DNA of 64,000 nt from Bacteroidota bacterium (GCA_025963725.1 JAOQAE010000002.1:1544411-1608410), one strand, 5' to 3'; positions 36,783 through 45,704 are shown, counted from the first letter of the stretch. Translations and numbers: made by a program. Notes: generated from the letters alone by a model not told the origin.

Positions 36783-37550
36783 ATGGATGAAAAACTAAAA
36801 GCTTTCGAACGCTTACTCATAATCATGGACGAATTAAGGGAGCAATGCCCCTGGGATAAAAAGCAAACTTTCGAAAGCCTGCGGCATTTAACCATTGAAG
36901 AAACCTACGAGCTGGCCGACGCGATCCTCGATAAGGACATGAACGGGATCAAGAAAGAGCTGGGCGATGTATTGCTGCATATCGTTTTTTATGCGCGCAT
37001 GGGCTCCGAGACCAATACCTTCAACATTGCGGATGTGATCAATTCCCTTTGCGACAAGCTGATCCACCGCCACCCGCATATTTACGGCGATGTAAAAGTG
37101 GATAACGAGGAGCAGGTGAAAGAGAACTGGGAAAAGCTGAAATTAAAGGAAGGCACCAAATCGGTGCTTGCAGGCGTTCCTGTGTCCTTACCTTCACTGG
37201 TGAAAGCTTCACGCATCCAGGAAAAGGCGCGCGCCGTTGGCTTCGACTGGGAAAAGCCGGAGCAGGTTTGGGAAAAGGTGCAGGAAGAGCTGGACGAGTT
37301 CAAGCACGAGGTGGATACTAATTCCTCCCATGAAAAGATGGAAGCGGAATTCGGCGATGTGCTGTTCTCCCTGATCAATTACGGGCGCTTTAAAGGCATC
37401 AACCCCGAAGATGCGCTCGAGCGCACGAATAAAAAATTCATTAAACGCTTTCAATACCTCGAAGCGGAAGCGCTGAAAGCAGGCAAAGAGCTGAGCGACA
37501 TGACGCTTGCGGAGATGGATGTATACTGGAACAAGGCGAAGGAGCTGTAA
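36783..37550 (+). CDS. mazG: Nucleoside triphosphate pyrophosphohydrolase MazG
   Basis: 255 aa with two MazG domains. First: LRHLTIEETYELADAI and KKELGDVLLHIVFYARM (E-E-x2-E and E-x2-D). Second: EVQEELDEFKHEV-like helix (VQEELDEFKHEVD) and EFGDVLFSLINYGR. The CPWDKKQTFESL N-terminal block is diagnostic of full MazG. Hydrolyses NTPs to NMP plus PPi in the cytosol, lowering damaged nucleotides and (p)ppGpp-linked pools. Followed by an inverted pair of intergenic repeats. Confidence 0.95.
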   Translation: MDEKLKAFERLLIIMDELREQCPWDKKQTFESLRHLTIEETYELADAILDKDMNGIKKELGDVLLHIVFYARMGSETNTFNIADVINSLCDKLIHRHPHIYGDVKVDNEEQVKENWEKLKLKEGTKSVLAGVPVSLPSLVKASRIQEKARAVGFDWEKPEQVWEKVQEELDEFKHEVDTNSSHEKMEAEFGDVLFSLINYGRFKGINPEDALERTNKKFIKRFQYLEAEALKAGKELSDMTLAEMDVYWNKAKEL

Positions 37551-37552
37551 TG

Positions 37553-37636
37553 AGATTCATTCGCTTCGCTCAGGATGACAAAGTGCTCAACCGAATCATT
37601 ATCTGTTCTTGTCATGCTGAGGAACGAAGCATCTCT
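37553..37636. repeat. Head-to-head pair of CATCCTGAG-type repeats
   Basis: GAGATTCATTCGCTTCGCTC...GATGAC (37553-37579) and GTCATGCTGAGGAACGAAGC (37611-37630) plus ATCTC are inverted relatives. They can form a long imperfect hairpin between mazG and acpH, similar to a BIME arrangement, perhaps acting as terminator. Confidence 0.7.
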
Positions 37637-37650
37637 TTAATATTAAAAAA

Positions 37651-38238
37651 ATGAACTTCCTCTCTCACCTTTTTCTCTCCGGCGATTCCGAAGGCCTCAT
37701 CATCGGGAACTTCATTGCCGACTCGGTGAAAGGAAGCGATTATAAGAACTACTCCCCCGCGATCCAGGAAGGCATATTGCTGCACCGCAAGATCGATACA
37801 TTCACAGATACGCACCCGGTGGTGGAAGAAAGCAAACAACGCCTGCGCCCCGCCTACAGGAAATATGCAAGCGTGATCGTGGATGTGTATTATGATCATT
37901 ATCTCGCCGTCAACTGGCATCACTATTCCAATGAAGCATTAAGCAGCTACGTACAAAGGATCTATTCGCTCATCCGGCGCAATGAAGCACTGCTGCCATT
38001 GAAATCGGCACACTTCACAAATTACATGGTACGCTATAATATCCTCGAAGCTTATGCAAGGCTGGAAGGGATCGACCGCGTGCTGCAGGGAATGGCTGCA
38101 AGGGCAAAGTTTCAATCGAACATGGAGCTTGCGGTTAAAGATCTTGAAGAGCATTATCTGCTGTTTGAAAATGAGTTCAGGCGGTTCTTTCCGGAACTGC
38201 AGGAGTTTGTTACGAAAGAGATCAGTTCGTCCCGATAG
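37651..38238 (+). CDS. acpH: Acyl-carrier-protein phosphodiesterase-family protein
   Basis: 195 aa. N-terminal NFLSHLFLSGDSEGLIIGNFIAD matches the AcpH/DUF479 helical HD-like fold, with LLHRKIDTFTDTHP and the VDVYYDHYLAVNW metal/active motif. AcpH removes 4'-phosphopantetheine from holo-ACP; many homologues are untested. The final codons and TAG stop sit in the palindrome CCCGATAGCTATCGGG (38231-38246), so the C-terminus has been reshaped by a repeat. Confidence 0.9.
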   Translation: MNFLSHLFLSGDSEGLIIGNFIADSVKGSDYKNYSPAIQEGILLHRKIDTFTDTHPVVEESKQRLRPAYRKYASVIVDVYYDHYLAVNWHHYSNEALSSYVQRIYSLIRRNEALLPLKSAHFTNYMVRYNILEAYARLEGIDRVLQGMAARAKFQSNMELAVKDLEEHYLLFENEFRRFFPELQEFVTKEISSSR

Positions 38239-38315: not shown

Positions 38316-38419
38316 AATTAAATAGTTATTGCCTATTTAATTGGTACCTTCCACGAAACAAGATGTGATTTTGCCCCTGCAAAACCCTTAAAAGCACCGT
38401 GTAATGCACGGTGCTTTTT
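38316..38419 (+). promoter_or_regulatory. Three-hairpin leader/attenuator-like region before the nine-gene operon
   Basis: Hairpin 1: AATTAAATAG (38316-38325) with CTATTTAATT (38333-38342), loop TTATTGC. Hairpin 2: TTTTGC-CCCT-GCAAAA (38369-38384). Hairpin 3: AAAAGCACCGTG (38390-38401) with CACGGTGCTTTT (38407-38418) and a T run to 38419, an intrinsic terminator. The first ATG is only 29 nt beyond and no TAnnTTTG lies in that space. So either the operon reads through this hairpin (attenuation) or a small RNA ends here; it could also simply be the acpH terminator. No ligand class recognised. Confidence 0.55.
38390..38419 (+). terminator. Intrinsic terminator/attenuator hairpin
   Basis: GCACCGTG-TAATG-CACGGTGC stem flanked by A's and a T5 run. 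Strong by shape; its role (terminator of upstream RNA or conditional attenuator) is open. Confidence 0.85.
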
Positions 38420-38448
38420 CTTTTCTGGCTTATTAATACACGACGATC

Positions 38449-38667
38449 ATGAAAAACGAAAAAGAACTCTATGCAGATATTCTGAAAATCCTAACAGCTA
38501 TAGAAGACAGATTTCCTGAATTATCGAAATACATAACTGAAATGCCGGTTAAGATTTCGGCAGGCACGGATATGACCGTTAAAAATCTAAAGAATTATTA
38601 CGATTCATTAAATGCCTTATTGAATAATTACATGTCCACGCATACGCCTCTCACGAATAACCAATAA
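38449..38667 (+). CDS. Small hypothetical protein, first gene of operon
   Basis: 72 aa, cytosolic, helical (ELYADILKILTAIEDRFPELSKYI, MTVKNLKNYYDSLNALLNNYM). No domain recognised. It ends 14 bp before yceI and begins 29 nt after a terminator-like hairpin. By eye more AT-rich than the surrounding genes, as are the next three genes. Function unknown; small size could suit a regulator or adaptor, which is speculation. Confidence 0.65.
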   Translation: MKNEKELYADILKILTAIEDRFPELSKYITEMPVKISAGTDMTVKNLKNYYDSLNALLNNYMSTHTPLTNNQ

Positions 38668-38681
38668 AAAGACAGAGAACA

Positions 38682-39260
38682 ATGTCAAAAATAAAATGGT
38701 CGGTCGACCCAGAAAAAAGCTTCATTTCCTTCAGAGTAGATCCTCTGATCTTCGGCCCTGTTGAAGGATCATTCAGGATATTTGATGCAGACATCCAGAC
38801 AACGGGGGATGCCTTCAGCACCATTGATCTTATTCTATACATAGATGCCGCCTCTATAAGTACAGGCGACATTGAACGCGACCAGCATTTAAAAAGCGCG
38901 GACTTCTTCGATGTTCAAAATCATAAGCAAATAAAATTCACCTCAAAAAGAATAAGGATGGAAAGCCATGATGAAAATCATGAGCTATGCGGTGAGCTTA
39001 AGATCAAAGATATTTCCATAGAGGTAAAAGTGGCCGTACAGGCCGGAGAGATCCTGGAAGATGCTTCCGGCAATGAGAATTCCGTATTTACCATTAACGG
39101 CAAAGTAAACAGAACGGATTGGGGGCTTACCTGGAATGCTTCGCCGCAAACGGGAGGATTAATGGAGAGTGAGGAAGTAACTATTTACTGCAAGGTTACG
39201 ATTACCCGCAAGCATGCTGCATCCAGCAGTGATTTAACAGTAAAACCTTTCACAACATGA
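38682..39260 (+). CDS. YceI-family lipid-binding-like protein
   Basis: 192 aa, lipocalin-like YceI fold: WSVDPEKSFISFRVDPLIFGPVEGSF opening, LYIDAASISTGDIERDQHLKSADFFD signature, ITFTSKRI-type strand (IKFTSKRI), GELKIKDISIEVKV and DWGLTWNA. No signal peptide is evident, unusual since most YceI proteins are periplasmic isoprenoid binders. The stop overlaps the next ATG as ATGA (39257-39260). Confidence 0.9.
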   Translation: MSKIKWSVDPEKSFISFRVDPLIFGPVEGSFRIFDADIQTTGDAFSTIDLILYIDAASISTGDIERDQHLKSADFFDVQNHKQIKFTSKRIRMESHDENHELCGELKIKDISIEVKVAVQAGEILEDASGNENSVFTINGKVNRTDWGLTWNASPQTGGLMESEEVTIYCKVTITRKHAASSSDLTVKPFTT

Positions 39261-39652
39261 AAACGGCCCGGATCATCGCCTTAACACTCTTGTTCTTTGT
39301 AGCCTTAAGCTCACTCGTAGCCGGCTATCTTTTTATAACTGACCCTTCCGGCGCAGCGCTGCATATACCTGTGCGCTGGCTTCTTCACAGCCCCTTTGAT
39401 GATTTTTTTATTCCGGGCATCATCCTGTTCATTGTAAACGGCGTGCTGAGCTTATTAGCGGCAGCCTGCACCATCTGGAGAATAAGAACATATCCGAGAA
39501 TGGTTTCATTGCAGGGCATTCTGCTAACGGGCTGGATAGTTGTACAGATCATTATGCTTCAGCAGCTCCTTCTTCTTCACCTTATCTATGGCGGGATCGG
39601 AATCCTTCTTTTCATTTTGGGAATAAAGCTTAAATCAAATCATCACAGATGA
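39257..39652 (+). CDS. Four-TM membrane protein, function unknown
   Basis: 131 aa with four hydrophobic helices: IIALTLLFFVALSSLVAGYLF, FFIPGIILFIVNGVLSLLAA, GILLTGWIVVQIIML, and LHLIYGGIGILLFILGI. No enzymatic motifs. Coupled by ATGA overlaps to both neighbours (YceI and CPBP), so it acts with them in the membrane. A family with similar topology is common as hypothetical proteins; I cannot assign a role. Confidence 0.7.
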   Translation: MKTARIIALTLLFFVALSSLVAGYLFITDPSGAALHIPVRWLLHSPFDDFFIPGIILFIVNGVLSLLAAACTIWRIRTYPRMVSLQGILLTGWIVVQIIMLQQLLLLHLIYGGIGILLFILGIKLKSNHHR

Positions 39653-40461
39653 ACAGAGCTGCGTGGACCTATATCCTCATCGCCTACCTTGTTACATGGA
39701 GCATTACGCTGACCGCTTACTGCCTGTATAGAACCGGCGCATTAACTCTCGACCAGCTGAACCTTGTATATAACGTTGGCGCCGCAGGCCCCTTACTGGG
39801 AGCTTTGATCAGCGCAAAAATATACTATGGCAACAGCGGCATAAAAAAATTGTTTTCCACCCTCAGCTTTAAAACATTAAATAAAAGAGCCTTGCTCATT
39901 GCCTTCAGCCCTCTTGTTTTTTTAGGGATCGGCTTATTACTGTTTCCCGTTTTTGCAGGACACTGGTATACTTTTTCCGATACACAGGAACAATTTAAGC
40001 TCAGTACGCCAATCAGCTATCTTAGCTGGATCCTTCCCTTTATTACCTATTCGCTGCTTGAAGAGTTCGGCTGGAGAGCATTTTTATTACCGCACCTGCA
40101 ATCCCGGTACACGGCCTTTAAATCCACAATGCTCCTTACTGCTTTTTGGGCATGCTGGCATCTGCCTTTCTTTTTGTGGCGCTTCCAGTTTTCATTATTT
40201 ATCACTATCGGCTTCTTTTTTTCCATATTCATTGGAGCCCTCATTATTACATCCATATTTAACCTGGGCAAAGGCAGCATCATTCCGGTTATTATTTTTC
40301 ATCTCACCAATAATATTGCATCTGCAATAGACAAAAAATATCTTGTTGCAGTTGTAAGCACAGGCTTTGTTCTTTTAGCTCTCTGGATCATCAGAACCTA
40401 TAAAACAAAGGACCTGGCGGATGTTCCCAGAGTTCAGAATTTTTATCTATCAGCTAAATGA
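39649..40461 (+). CDS. CPBP-family intramembrane metalloprotease
   Basis: 270 aa, about eight TM helices. Catalytic CPBP motifs: EExxxR at E138-E139-x-x-x-R143 (LLEEFGWRAFLLPHL), a His in ACWHLPFF (H171), and FHLTNN (~222). CPBP (CAAX/bacteriocin-processing) glutamic proteases act in the membrane; substrates vary from prenylated proteins to signal proteins. ATGA overlaps with both neighbours. In this operon it may process a membrane partner, inferred. Confidence 0.9.
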   Translation: MNRAAWTYILIAYLVTWSITLTAYCLYRTGALTLDQLNLVYNVGAAGPLLGALISAKIYYGNSGIKKLFSTLSFKTLNKRALLIAFSPLVFLGIGLLLFPVFAGHWYTFSDTQEQFKLSTPISYLSWILPFITYSLLEEFGWRAFLLPHLQSRYTAFKSTMLLTAFWACWHLPFFLWRFQFSLFITIGFFFSIFIGALIITSIFNLGKGSIIPVIIFHLTNNIASAIDKKYLVAVVSTGFVLLALWIIRTYKTKDLADVPRVQNFYLSAK

Positions 40462-41324
40462 AGAGCCAGTTACAGGTCATAAAAGCTTCGGGAGAAAGCG
40501 CAGCATTCTCCGAAGTAAAATTACGCAGCTCCCTTGAGCGTTCGGGGGCGACAGAGGAACAGATCGAAGCGGTGATGGATAAAATATCCGCGAAGATTTA
40601 CGATGGCATCTCTACAAAAAAGATCTACCGCCTTGCCTTTAGCCTGCTCAAGGGAAGCTCGGCGCACCTCGCAGCTAAATACCATTTGAAGCAGGCCATC
40701 ATGGAGCTGGGGCCCTCCGGCTACCCTTTTGAAAAATACATTGCTGAAATTTTACGCTACCAGGGCTATCATACGAGGGTAGGCGAACTGGTGCAGGGGC
40801 ATTGTGTGCAGCATGAGGTGGATGTAATTGCGAAGACCGGCAATAAGCAATTAATGATCGAGTGCAAATACCATAATCAACCGGGCATATTCTGTGATGT
40901 AAAAGTTCCGCTGTACATCCATTCAAGATTCAAGGACGTGGAAACAGCGTGGATGAAGTTACCGCAGAATGAGAACCTTTCATACGAAGGCTGGGTAGTT
41001 ACAAACACGCGCTTTTCAACCGATGCCATCCGTTATGGAACCTGTGCCGGCCTTAAGCTCATCGGCTGGGATTATCCCGCCAAGGGCAGCCTCAAAGAGC
41101 AGGTTGACACATTGGGGCTCTACCCGCTTACCTGCCTTACCTCGTTAACAAAGATCGAAAAGCAGCTGCTGCTGGATAAAAAAATAGTTCTGTGCCAGGA
41201 GCTGAACAAGAACACAAGCCCGCTTGAACAGCTGGGAATTAAAGCTTCACGCATCGCTGTTGTGGTGAAGGAAGCCCAGGACCTGTGCAAGCATCTAACA
41301 TCAAATTCAAACCTTATATCTTAA
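40458..41324 (+). CDS. ATP-cone domain fused to Mrr-like PD-(D/E)xK nuclease
   Basis: 288 aa. Residues ~5-90 form an ATP-cone (VIKASGESAAFSEVKLRSSL, SAKIYDGISTKKIYRLAFSLL), the nucleotide-sensing domain of ribonucleotide reductases and NrdR. From ~90, a restriction-endonuclease-like domain: helix FEKYIAEILR (E92), D122 in HEVDVIA and E135-C-K137 in LMIECKYHN, the D...ExK catalytic set, followed by a FCDVKVPLYIHSRFKDV helix as in Mrr/REase-fold enzymes. A ~90-residue C-terminal tail follows. Likely a nuclease gated by ATP/dATP. ATG overlaps the protease stop; the MBL gene starts 9 bp later. Confidence 0.85.
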   Translation: MKSQLQVIKASGESAAFSEVKLRSSLERSGATEEQIEAVMDKISAKIYDGISTKKIYRLAFSLLKGSSAHLAAKYHLKQAIMELGPSGYPFEKYIAEILRYQGYHTRVGELVQGHCVQHEVDVIAKTGNKQLMIECKYHNQPGIFCDVKVPLYIHSRFKDVETAWMKLPQNENLSYEGWVVTNTRFSTDAIRYGTCAGLKLIGWDYPAKGSLKEQVDTLGLYPLTCLTSLTKIEKQLLLDKKIVLCQELNKNTSPLEQLGIKASRIAVVVKEAQDLCKHLTSNSNLIS

Positions 41325-41333
41325 AAAATAAAA

Positions 41334-42740
41334 ATGTCATCAATAAACACATCAGAAATAAAAATTCAATTCCTCGGAGCTGCCGGTACGGTTACCGGAT
41401 CGAAATACCTTATTCAGACTCCGCTTAAAAACATCCTGGTTGATTGCGGAATGTTCCAGGGCCTGAAAGAATTGCGGCTCTTAAACTGGAACAGCCTGCC
41501 GGTTGATGCGGCCGAAATCGACCTTGTACTGCTTACCCACGGGCATCTCGATCATACAGGCTACCTTCCGAGACTGGTCAAGGGAGGCTTTTCAGGGCAG
41601 ATATTCGGAACACAGCCAACACTTGAGATCACAAAAATAATATTGCAGGACAGTGCAAGGATCCAGGAAGAAGATGCAGAAAGAGCAAACGAGGAAGGAT
41701 TCTCAAAGCACAAGCCGGCAATACCTTTATATGGCCTGGAAGATGTAGAAAAAACGTTAGTGCTGCTGCGTCCGCAGGCGCCTGACAAATGGATCGAGAT
41801 CGATAAAGAGATCTATTGCAGGTTTCGTTACAACGGGCATATTATTGGCGCCACCTTTATCGAATTAAAGATCGGCACAAAAACAATTGTTTTTTCGGGT
41901 GATATCGGCAGGGAAAAAGACCTGCTGATGTATCCGCCTCAAAAGCCGGAAACAGCCGATGTTCTATTGATAGAGGCCACCTATGGCGACCGGATGCACC
42001 CCGAGAACGGCGAGGAAGCGCTGGTGGCAATAATTAATAAAGCGCTGGCGGCGCAGGGAACGATCATTATTCCAAGCTTTGCGGTGGAGCGGACGCAAAC
42101 ATTGATGTACCTGCTCTGGAAGCTGAAAAAAAAGGGAACCATTCCTGACATTCCCATTTACATGGATAGCCCGATGGGAACAAATGTGCTGGACGTTTTC
42201 CGGAATAATCCTTCCTGGCATAAGCTTCCACTGGATGATTGCAATGAAATGTGCAATGACATCAGGCTGATCAGGACGATCCAGGAAACATACGCTTTGG
42301 CTAAATCCGACCACTCAAAGATCATTATTGCGGGAAGCGGAATGGCCTCCGGCGGACGAGTGCTTACTTATTTTCTTCAATACCTTGGAAAAACATCCTC
42401 TACCATTTTATTGGTTGGTTACCAGGCAGAAGGCACCCGCGGCAGGGCATTGCTGGAAGGCGCAACAGAAGTGAAGCTTTTTGGGAAGATGTATCCCGTT
42501 AAGGCAACGATCATAAACGCGGAAGGCTTATCCTCTCATGCCGATCAGCGCGGGCTCATCGGGTGGCTCTCCAAGCTTGCCTCCGCCCCCGAAAAAATAT
42601 TTATTGTGCATGCCGAGCAAACATCAGCGGAAGGATTAAGAGACAAGATCAAGGAAGTATATAATTGGAATGCAGCTATTCCCCAGCTGAACCAGGTGAT
42701 AACGCTGCAGGAAACAAAAGCTCAAATTAAGATCCGATGA
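41334..42740 (+). CDS. Metallo-beta-lactamase/beta-CASP RNA-processing nuclease (RMMBL)
   Basis: 468 aa. MBL core with THGHLDHTG (H69, H71, D73, H74), HIIGAT and FSGDIGR; IEATYGDRMH is the fourth motif. The beta-CASP insert has GSGMASGGR and GYQAEGTRGRAL, and C-terminal RMMBL has SSHADQRG and FIVHAE. This is the CPSF73/YSH1-like architecture of RNA endo/exonucleases, not a classical beta-lactamase. Expected in the cytosol with two zincs. It overlaps the phosphorylase start as ATGA (42737-42740). Confidence 0.93.
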   Translation: MSSINTSEIKIQFLGAAGTVTGSKYLIQTPLKNILVDCGMFQGLKELRLLNWNSLPVDAAEIDLVLLTHGHLDHTGYLPRLVKGGFSGQIFGTQPTLEITKIILQDSARIQEEDAERANEEGFSKHKPAIPLYGLEDVEKTLVLLRPQAPDKWIEIDKEIYCRFRYNGHIIGATFIELKIGTKTIVFSGDIGREKDLLMYPPQKPETADVLLIEATYGDRMHPENGEEALVAIINKALAAQGTIIIPSFAVERTQTLMYLLWKLKKKGTIPDIPIYMDSPMGTNVLDVFRNNPSWHKLPLDDCNEMCNDIRLIRTIQETYALAKSDHSKIIIAGSGMASGGRVLTYFLQYLGKTSSTILLVGYQAEGTRGRALLEGATEVKLFGKMYPVKATIINAEGLSSHADQRGLIGWLSKLASAPEKIFIVHAEQTSAEGLRDKIKEVYNWNAAIPQLNQVITLQETKAQIKIR

Positions 42741-44242
42741 ATAATCCGCAATTGCATTCATTAAAGATCAAAGATCTTGGAATCGACTCCTACCGCGAAA
42801 ATATTATTTTCATAAAGGCAGACAGTCCGGTGTGCATTTCAGAAGGCTTTACCGCGCTTGCCAGGGTGATCGTTCACAGGAACAACAACAGGATCATTGC
42901 CACACTCAATGTAGTGAAATCGGACATTATCAACAACGGTGAAGCAGGCTTGTCAACAGAGGCCATGAAACGCCTGGAAGTAAAAGAGGGCGACATGATC
43001 CTCGTTTCCCATCTGCATCCTATTGAATCCCTGGGCAAGGTCAGGGCCAAGGTATATGGAAAAGAGCTGGATGAAGCTTCGTACCATGAGATCATTAAGG
43101 ATGTGGTTGCCGGTCATTACGCCAATATTGAAATAGCGGCATTTGTTTCCGCCTGCGCAGGAGATAACATGACCATGAATGAAATGATCTCGCTTACAAA
43201 AGCGATGATGGCAGTCGGGACAAAAATGCGCTGGGAAAAGGAAATGATCCTCGACAAGCATTGTGTGGGAGGGCTTCCGGGCAACCGCACTACTCCCATA
43301 GTAGTTGGCATAATAGCAGCCGCCGGGCTGACCATTCCAAAAACTTCCTCCAGGGCCATTACTTCTCCTGCGGGAACAGCAGATACAATGGAAACAATGG
43401 CCCCTGTGAATTTAAGCATAGAAAAAATTCAGGAAGTAGTCATTAAACAAGGAGGCTGCATCGCCTGGGGCGGAGCTGTAATGCTGAGCCCCGCAGATGA
43501 CCTGCTGATAGCAGTTGAAAAATCGCTCGACATTGACAGCACAGGCCAGATGGTGGCATCTGTATTGTCGAAAAAGGCAGCGGCAGGATCAACACATGTT
43601 GTAATTGACATCCCGGTAGGCCCCACGGCAAAGGTCCGGACCCATGAAGAGGCCCTCAAGCTCGGATATTATTTCAAAACGGTGAGCGAAGCGATCGGCA
43701 TTCATTCTGAAGTTATTATTACCGACGGCACCCAACCGGTAGGCAAAGGGATCGGGCCTTCACTGGAAGCGATGGATGTATTGGCCGTTCTCCAAAATAA
43801 AACGGATGCACCCCTCGATCTGAAGGAGCGCGCCATCACTCTCGCGGCAGCTTTACTCAGGCTGTCGGGACAATTTTCATTGGGAACCGAAGATACCGTA
43901 GCAAGGGCATTGCTGGAAAGCGGAAAAGCATACCGGAAATTCATGGACATTTGCGAAGCGCAGGGCGGCTTCCGGGAGCCGCGGTTCGCCCGGTTCCGCT
44001 TTGATGTACTGTCCGAAAAAAGCGGAACTGTAAAAGCTATCGACAGCAGGAAGCTGGCACGCGTTGCAAAGCTTGCAGGCGCACCCAAAGAACCATGCGC
44101 AGGCATGCTTTTTAATGCATCACTCGGAAAGAACATTAAAAAGGGTGATCTGCTTTTCAGCATTTATGCTGAATCAAACGGCGAAATGGAATATGCCAAA
44201 GAATATTTAAATAGTTTAAAAGACCTCATTCATATAAGCTGA
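42737..44242 (+). CDS. Archaeal-type AMP phosphorylase / thymidine-phosphorylase family
   Basis: 501 aa, the length of archaeal AMP phosphorylase (DeoA-long) rather than bacterial thymidine phosphorylase (~440). It has the extra N-terminal domain (~1-85) that archaeal enzymes use for assembly, then the phosphorylase core: DKHCVGGLPGNRTT (173-186) and KTSSRAITSPAGTADTMETM (202-221), the variant of the SGRG..GTLD signature found in AMP phosphorylases. Predicted reaction: NMP + phosphate to free base + ribose 1,5-bisphosphate (or nucleoside to ribose 1-phosphate). It shares one base with the PRPP synthetase start. Substrate choice is inferred. Confidence 0.88.
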   Translation: MNNPQLHSLKIKDLGIDSYRENIIFIKADSPVCISEGFTALARVIVHRNNNRIIATLNVVKSDIINNGEAGLSTEAMKRLEVKEGDMILVSHLHPIESLGKVRAKVYGKELDEASYHEIIKDVVAGHYANIEIAAFVSACAGDNMTMNEMISLTKAMMAVGTKMRWEKEMILDKHCVGGLPGNRTTPIVVGIIAAAGLTIPKTSSRAITSPAGTADTMETMAPVNLSIEKIQEVVIKQGGCIAWGGAVMLSPADDLLIAVEKSLDIDSTGQMVASVLSKKAAAGSTHVVIDIPVGPTAKVRTHEEALKLGYYFKTVSEAIGIHSEVIITDGTQPVGKGIGPSLEAMDVLAVLQNKTDAPLDLKERAITLAAALLRLSGQFSLGTEDTVARALLESGKAYRKFMDICEAQGGFREPRFARFRFDVLSEKSGTVKAIDSRKLARVAKLAGAPKEPCAGMLFNASLGKNIKKGDLLFSIYAESNGEMEYAKEYLNSLKDLIHIS

Positions 44243-45132
44243 TGAAACCAATTGTTTTTGCACTGCCGGGGAATGAGCTTCTTTCCCGGAAGATCATCGA
44301 GGGAACAAATGCAGAGCAAGCCGATTTTGTGCTGCGCTCATTTCCGGATGGTGAAACCTACCTGAGAGTACTGAGCAATATGGAAGGCAAAGAGGTGATC
44401 ATTGTTTGCACGCTTCATGAACCGGACAATAAATTGCTTCCGCTTCTTTTTCTCTGCAGGTTACTGAGAGAGCAAAAGGCCGGATCCATCTGCCTCGTTG
44501 CGCCCTATCTTTCATACATGCGGCAGGATATGAAGTTTAAATCCGGTGAAGCGGTAACATCGGATTATTTTGCAACGCTGCTCTCTTCACTTGCCGACCG
44601 CCTGATCACCATCGATCCGCATTTACACCGCAGGGTGTCCATGAAAGAGATCTATACGATCCCATGCGATGTTTTACATGCGGCGGAGCTGATCTCAGGA
44701 TGGATAAAGAAAAACATTCCGGATGCGCTGATAATAGGCCCTGACGCAGAAAGCGAGCAATGGGTGGCGCAGGTTGCAGCAAATGCAAATGCACCTTTTA
44801 TTATCCTGGAAAAAACAAGGTCGGGCGACAGCAATGTAAAAGTAACGGTTCCGCAGGTTAAAAACTACAGGAACCATACGCCTGTGCTTGTAGATGATAT
44901 TATTTCCACCGCAAGAACAATGATTGAAACAATCGGCCACCTTCAGCATGCCGGAATGCGGGCTCCTGTGTGCATTGGCGTACACGCAGTATTTGCGAAG
45001 AATGCTTACAAAGACCTGAAAAATTCAGGCCCCGCCAGGGTGATAACATGCAACACCATCAGCCATGAAACAAATGCGATCGATATCAGTGAAATGCTGA
45101 TCCGGCAGTTACAGAAGGCGATGGAAAAATAA
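44242..45132 (+). CDS. prs: Ribose-phosphate pyrophosphokinase, short archaeal-like form
   Basis: 296 aa, shorter than housekeeping bacterial Prs (~310). Motifs: SFPDGETYLRV (34-42), PYLSYMRQDMKF (88-99), DPHLHR (125-130) and the PRPP loop LVDDIISTART (216-226). Normally makes PRPP from ribose 5-phosphate and ATP. Position after an AMP-phosphorylase-type enzyme suggests recycling of ribose phosphates to PRPP and base salvage. The essential housekeeping Prs is probably encoded elsewhere, so this is a specialised copy (inference). Confidence 0.9.
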   Translation: MKPIVFALPGNELLSRKIIEGTNAEQADFVLRSFPDGETYLRVLSNMEGKEVIIVCTLHEPDNKLLPLLFLCRLLREQKAGSICLVAPYLSYMRQDMKFKSGEAVTSDYFATLLSSLADRLITIDPHLHRRVSMKEIYTIPCDVLHAAELISGWIKKNIPDALIIGPDAESEQWVAQVAANANAPFIILEKTRSGDSNVKVTVPQVKNYRNHTPVLVDDIISTARTMIETIGHLQHAGMRAPVCIGVHAVFAKNAYKDLKNSGPARVITCNTISHETNAIDISEMLIRQLQKAMEK

Positions 45133-45161
45133 TGTCCGGTTGAATATTAACACAAAGCAGC

Positions 45162-45704
45162 ATGACTAAAAAAGCAATAAAAACAATACAGGAACATTCC
45201 GAAACACGCATTTTGCTGGATTCTTATGATGATATTTTTTCCGATTTTGATCCCGGGGAATATGCAGAAAGGACTTTGTCCGATGATTTTATTATCCAGC
45301 TGAAAAAAATCGCAAGGAATAAAAACGGGGACAAGCCTTTGCTAAAGCTTCTTTTACCAGCCGGCAAACGGAATGAGCAGGAAGAAGAAATAATTGTAAA
45401 AAGGCTGCATTCCTATTTTAAAAATGTTCATAAGCAGCTGGAAACAGAAGCCCGCAAGGCAAAAAGAACCGGCTGGATCCTGACATTCATCGGGATCATC
45501 GTAATGGTAGTGGCAAGCTATATCTCGTTTATGAAGCCGCAAAAATATTATGTGCATATCCTGCTGGTGCTGTTCGAGCCGGGCGGCTGGTTCTTATTAT
45601 GGACCGGGCTCGATCATTTGGTGTACTCTTCAAAGGAAGCGAAAAAGGACCGCAGCTTTTACCAGCGAATGATCAGATCAGAGATTATTTTTCTTGCACA
45701 TTAG
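45162..45704 (+). CDS. Two-TM hypothetical protein ending the operon
   Basis: 180 aa. A charged cytosolic N-terminal domain (~1-100, HSETRILLDSYDDIFSDFD) leads to two TM helices (~103-123, ILTFIGIIVMVVASYIS; ~131-150, HILLVLFEPGGWFLLWTGL) joined by a short loop, then a C-terminal tail (AKKDRSFYQRMIRSEIIF). The EPGGWFLLW hairpin looks conserved in form. No domain recognised. It follows prs by 29 bp, so it is probably in the same transcript. It could tether or sense for the operon's enzymes. Confidence 0.65.
   Translation: MTKKAIKTIQEHSETRILLDSYDDIFSDFDPGEYAERTLSDDFIIQLKKIARNKNGDKPLLKLLLPAGKRNEQEEEIIVKRLHSYFKNVHKQLETEARKAKRTGWILTFIGIIVMVVASYISFMKPQKYYVHILLVLFEPGGWFLLWTGLDHLVYSSKEAKKDRSFYQRMIRSEIIFLAH

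Follow-up and report, generated by a model that had tools for sequence, protein, structure and literature searches.

What becomes of the ribose 1,5-bisphosphate (R15P) released by nucleoside monophosphate (NMP) phosphorylases is established for archaea. In Escherichia coli, the step from R15P to PRPP is carried out by the ribose 1,5-bisphosphokinase PhnN. Classical PRPP synthetases (PRS) take ribose 5-phosphate (R5P), not R15P. The pentose bisphosphate pathway of the Thermococcales runs through R15P isomerase and RuBisCO. Its phosphorylase, TK0352, is reported to be active on AMP, CMP and UMP (PMC9700705). A bacterial arrangement of related genes occurs in Bradyrhizobium diazoefficiens, where bll3117, bll3116 and bll3115 (phosphorylase, PRS and MBL hydrolase) are predicted to be one operon and have a FixK2 box at −74. 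According to the sections of two reports that deal with it, mutation of fixK2 lowers expression of bll3117 and bll3115, and microoxia raises all three genes at both RNA and protein level (PMC6515984, PMC9104804).

Here we describe a locus of a Bacteroidota bacterium (GCA_025963725.1), lying in a window of 64,000 nucleotides, by which we mean the whole stretch of DNA that was analysed. All of its gene families are already known, as is the archaeal pathway. We tentatively read the locus as the four-gene core of a bacterial module that is widespread, moves horizontally and would serve to degrade nucleotides under energy, oxygen or metal stress, NMPs being cleaved to bases and R15P that a dedicated synthetase handles; we regard this as a serious possibility that falls just short of probable. 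In the open-licence literature we found no description, as a system, of a bacterial phosphorylase combined with a specialised synthetase and nucleases but lacking the archaeal outlet, and no paper addressing the fate of R15P in bacteria with this phosphorylase. Nor did the same literature yield an assay of any enzyme from the bacterial phosphorylase family, which counts against our reading.

The locus and its conserved core

The locus comprises nine open reading frames (ORFs), all on the + strand, between 38449 and 45704. ATGA overlaps are present at 39257, 39649, 40458 and 42737, and one base is shared at 44242. The sequence-only reading that preceded this work had given these ORFs, coordinates and overlaps correctly, and its family names hold at the curated Pfam and NCBIfam cut-offs. 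A leader ORF of 72 aa with no assigned family (38449..38667) is followed by a YceI-like protein (38682..39260; PF04264, 114 bits), a hydrophobic protein of 131 aa for which the search returned no Pfam or NCBIfam family (39257..39652) and a CPBP/Rce1-like membrane protease (39649..40461; PF02517, 41 bits); both named families score above their curated cut-offs. Then come an ATP-cone nuclease (40458..41324), a beta-CASP ribonuclease (41334..42740), the phosphorylase (42737..44242) and a short PRPP-synthetase-like enzyme (44242..45132), and a hydrophobic protein of 180 aa (45162..45704) closes the series. Directly upstream on the same strand lie genes for a MazG nucleotide pyrophosphohydrolase and an ACP phosphodiesterase (36783-38238), which a terminator-like hairpin at ∼38392-38422 seems to part from the operon. 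No Rfam elements were found in the window.

We compared 89 loci: the window, 8 plasmid loci and the 80 bacterial genome loci that were best by phosphorylase similarity, a ranking that ignored neighbours. In 75 of the 89, a synthetase gene is found no more than 3 kb from the phosphorylase; 74 of these have it downstream on the same strand, and many of the pairs show a 4-base overlap. The 14 loci that have no PRS inside 3 kb count against our reading. For the beta-CASP/MBL enzyme the same 3-kb limit gives 55/89 loci, and for the ATP-cone nuclease a 5-kb limit gives 17/89; carriers of the latter are Bacteroidota, one Verrucomicrobia MAG and Marinicella, and most proteobacterial copies of the module do without it. 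Because the core recurs with its order kept across phyla, the locus is far beyond chance. The sequence-only reading had proposed co-occurrence of the four enzyme genes in other genomes as its own test, and the neighbourhood comparison found them together in many genomes.

The wider idea of a nine-gene functional set did not survive this comparison, since only four of the nine genes are conserved. The YceI, CPBP and 131-aa proteins were found in none of the other loci compared. The 72-aa ORF has one weak 32-bit match (L044), and the genus offers a single further case of the 180-aa protein (241 bits), adjoining a second module copy of a congeneric genome (L143). The four core genes are present in every congeneric locus examined (L139, L140, L142-L145). 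In L141, from a relative in another family, the phosphorylase and PRS are kept and the nuclease and RNase were not called. The conserved unit is thus the ATP-cone nuclease, beta-CASP RNase, phosphorylase and short PRPP synthetase, with local additions. In L142 and L144 a P-type cation ATPase of ∼875 aa separates the ATP-cone nuclease from the RNase, and in L141 such an ATPase is found upstream of the phosphorylase; ion pumping may be part of some versions of the module.

Features of the four core enzymes

The 288-aa product of the first core gene combines an ATP-cone with a PD-(D/E)xK (Mrr/AF1548-like) nuclease. The ATP-cone match is marginal (PF03477, 26.3 bits against a cut-off of 25.8; 28.6 bits in the genome search), which counts against our reading. 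The protein also has Mrr_cat (PF04471) at 26.4 bits against a cut-off of 21, a match to solved AF1548 (1y88) at E 4e-32, and a HEvDV...ECK site that is kept in 18 relatives. We infer that this protein may control nucleic-acid breakdown. The second core protein (468 aa; PF10996, PF07521, PF00753) is an MBL-fold enzyme whose beta-CASP and RMMBL domains score 112 and 54 bits, over their cut-offs, and whose metal motifs, including HxHxDH, are kept. Its nearest solved relative is the Thermus beta-CASP RNase TTHA0252 (E 1.7e-66), which it resembles in domain layout and metal motifs but not in genomic partners.

The phosphorylase (501 aa, including an N-terminal extension) matches PRK04350 and TIGR02645 over its full length, at 651.5 and 584.5 bits against cut-offs of 434 and 434.6. 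The canonical thymidine and pyrimidine phosphorylase models are missed (TIGR02643, 138 vs 571 bits; TIGR02644, 192 vs 409 bits). Module phosphorylases have the blocks SSRAITSPAGTADTME and DKHCVGGLPGNRT as well as PGNRT. The SSRAITSPAGTADTME block is common to the module enzyme and the archaeal AMP phosphorylases, whereas canonical enzymes have SGRGLGHTGGTLDKLE in its place; those of Bacteroidota carry SGRGLGHTGGTLDKLE and DKHSTGGVGDK. Haloarchaeal AMP phosphorylases have SSRAVTSPAGTADTME or a near copy, and the solved Thermococcus enzyme has SSRAITSAAGTADVVE and GGVPGNKT. TK0352 belongs to the same superfamily and shares the N-terminal extension, PGN(K/R)T and SSRAITSxAGTAD, but has DVH where the module enzyme keeps DKH. 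The agreement of the base-site blocks with archaeal AMP phosphorylases makes NMP phosphorolysis the likelier reaction, to judge from the motifs. The description of this protein as an archaeal-type AMP phosphorylase therefore stands as regards the sequence block and the extension, but the protein misses the AMP phosphorylase equivalog TIGR03327 (471.4 bits against a cut-off of 535; haloarchaeal members score 611 and 616), and this counts against our reading.

The synthetase (296 aa) scores 382.8 bits with PRK07199 against a cut-off of 322. Its catalytic residues are intact: K191, R193 and D219 are invariant in 71 members and D218 is kept in 70, while FPD and RQD are likewise invariant in the 71. 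Synthetases of the archaeal class (1u9y, 4twb) have the same fold and share FPD[GN]E, RQD, the K-x-R catalytic pair and DDIIST. In this family the substrate is gripped at its C1 and C5 groups by the PP and ribose-phosphate loops, and it is here that the enzymes differ. The archaeal class has APDxGA and GGT, whereas the module enzyme has GPDxESxQW and [AG][RHQ]T, plus DPHLHR; most module members thus place Arg, His or Gln in the ribose-phosphate loop where Gly is standard. A separate housekeeping PRS with the standard loop is encoded elsewhere in the genome, so the operon PRS is a specialised one. The genome holds a third PRPP synthetase (L123; G000:C6:502732-503475 plus flanks), with an NrtR-type NUDIX regulator on one side and a Tpt1/KptA RNA 2'-phosphotransferase plus a metallophosphatase-like ORF on the other; this group may be an NAD/RNA-repair cluster.

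Fate of the ribose phosphate

We infer the substrates, the direction of the synthetase reaction and the role of the ATP-cone as follows. The beta-CASP RNase, judging by its family, would degrade RNA and supply NMPs. In Bacteroidota the ATP-cone nuclease would assist it, and the ATP-cone may sense nucleotide levels. From NMP and phosphate the phosphorylase would yield free base and R15P, as suggested by its motif agreement with the assayed archaeal enzymes. The synthetase-like enzyme would then handle the ribose phosphate, most simply by producing PRPP for re-use, alternatively by taking it down to R5P. Linkage, the loop changes and the absence of other outlets suggest that this step would replace the archaeal isomerase and RuBisCO, or the PhnN kinase.

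The first reading of the sequence had noted that the window lacks an R15P isomerase and type III RuBisCO, and this extends to the whole genome, where neither R15P isomerase nor RuBisCO gave a match. Here, a dedicated PRS and an RNase are found instead of the two enzymes of the Thermococcales route. The search elsewhere in the genome that it had advised, for PhnN or an R15P isomerase, brought up neither over cut-off. The search for phosphoketolase in this genome gave only a transketolase-type match. Among 40 other genomes that carry the phosphorylase, no R15P isomerase scores over cut-off, PhnN does so in 5 and phosphoketolase in 6. We therefore rejected PhnN as a general outlet for R15P, and phosphoketolase as a universal partner. 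The linked synthetase is thus the only tested enzyme that generally accompanies the phosphorylase.

PhnN differs in fold from the module synthetase. On a Pacificitalea plasmid (L037:9335-11461), one gene combines a PhnN kinase with a divergent phosphorylase relative; the fusion comes after nadC and TRAP transporter genes, and no PRS is nearby. This arrangement suggests that PhnN and the linked synthetase occupy the same slot. However, the fusion lies on a long branch of the phosphorylase tree, which counts against our reading. A bolder proposal would be that phosphorylase-linked PRK07199 synthetases have a new R15P activity, giving PRPP or, with AMP or ADP, R5P and ADP or ATP. They would thereby complete a bacterial pathway from RNA to PRPP or to energy, tied to an ATP-sensing nuclease, that needs neither R15P isomerase and RuBisCO nor PhnN. 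We consider this proposal plausible but somewhat doubtful. Since the classical substrate is R5P and not R15P, the step from R15P to PRPP calls for a changed activity, and this weighs against our main reading.

Distribution, regulation and alternative explanations

Among 59 related genomes the phosphorylase occurs in 8, and the PRK07199 synthetase is over cut-off in exactly those 8, a one-to-one pairing; one genome (G199) carries the pair twice. Presence is patchy inside the genus, and of 198 Bacteroidota genomes sampled, that of the window alone passes the family cut-off for the phosphorylase. In another class member (G002), a shortened phosphorylase of ∼290 aa with a transposase-like ORF downstream and heavy-metal efflux-like genes near is probably a broken module. 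Sequences from Bacteroidota, Verrucomicrobia, Marinicella and one from Levybacteria are intermixed in the phosphorylase tree, which fits horizontal transfer. Module islands of 18-21 kb that are 98.9-99.5% identical occur in four different proteobacterial genomes (L115, L116, L117, L120), those of Pseudomonas, Achromobacter, Hydrogenophaga and another Burkholderiales; identity of this degree is a sign of recent transfer. Eight of the loci are plasmid-borne.

Recurrent neighbours in the 89 loci are P-type ATPases (38), an ICMT-like methyltransferase (20), RND efflux (17), 2-hydroxyacid dehydrogenase (17), phosphoketolase (15), USP (7), GAPDH-like proteins (7) and acetate kinase (6). L093 and L097 have an unbroken series of phosphorylase, acetate kinase, phosphoketolase and synthetase genes, and L103 has the first three in a row. 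The Bradyrhizobium operon joins phosphorylase, PRS and MBL hydrolase as the module does, but the parts of the two reports that describe it name no ATP-cone nuclease, and its FixK2 box has no counterpart here (PMC6515984, PMC9104804). FNR/FixK2-type boxes (TTGA-N6-TCAA) lie upstream of the core in 2/85 loci, compared with 3.3% of other genes, and none was found in the window. With no such enrichment, general FNR control is unsupported, and the regulation seen in Bradyrhizobium may not hold here, which counts against our reading. Together, the low-oxygen regulation in Bradyrhizobium, the linkage to phosphoketolase, acetate kinase and metal export, and plasmid carriage point to a stress module besides plain salvage. 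A uranium-stress paper that features thymidine phosphorylase (PMC6315756) concerns deoA and was set aside.

The same neighbours could speak for an energy role, in which RNA ribose is fed to fermentation: R15P would be brought to R5P, perhaps by the synthetase-like enzyme working in the R5P direction with AMP or ADP as acceptor of the 1-phosphate. R5P would then enter the pentose phosphate pathway or be processed by phosphoketolase and acetate kinase, giving ATP without oxygen. The gene rows in L093, L097 and L103 and the presence of phosphoketolase in 15/89 loci agree with this, as does the B. diazoefficiens phosphoketolase-acetate kinase operon, which belongs to the same FixK2 regulon in the relevant section of that report (PMC9104804). 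We nevertheless think it unlikely, given that phosphoketolase is missing from the window's genome and from most of the 40 carriers, and that the reverse synthetase chemistry is conjecture and looks uphill by textbook values. Another alternative is ordinary nucleoside salvage: a thymidine or pyrimidine nucleoside phosphorylase, with freed bases re-used and PRPP made from R5P by a synthetase whose catalytic Lys and Arg are indeed intact. The database label (thymidine phosphorylase family) and the fold fit, and as the window's genome has no second match to the phosphorylase family, the role could be its own. Yet the base-site block is of the archaeal AMP phosphorylase type rather than canonical, the named recurrent neighbours include no deoxyribose or nucleoside genes, and a full-length enzyme of this type is missing from the majority of class members sampled, which leaves no evident gap for it to fill; this explanation strikes us as distinctly unlikely.

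The metal-export genes, plasmid carriage and near-identical islands raise the alternative that the module is a passenger of metal-resistance elements, its genes carried jointly and its true role being detoxification, for example the removal of damaged RNA during copper stress. The strict pairing of phosphorylase and PRS and the 4-base overlaps exceed mere co-transport, however, and the surroundings of the window copy and of several congeneric copies showed no recognisable heavy-metal genes, which leaves this account very improbable. Anti-phage defence, with a nucleotide-sensing nuclease and an RNase that kill or starve the infected cell, would suit two nucleases, an ATP-cone and a patchy distribution, and the MBL enzyme does give 376 bits with the type VII CRISPR Cas14 model (NF045584). 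That score (375.6 bits) is well below the cut-off of 800, none of the nine proteins matches PADLOC models at E 1e-5, and the neighbours are metabolic and metal genes. Defence is in our view hardly credible.

Our preferred reading, nucleotide breakdown with R15P passed to a dedicated synthetase, bears on many bacteria that carry the phosphorylase yet have no archaeal R15P enzymes. The one-to-one partner with altered substrate loops offers a single, cheap biochemical test. If the reading is true, the 'thymidine phosphorylase' label of a large protein family would be corrected, and stressed bacteria would be seen to couple RNA decay to the supply of PRPP or of energy.
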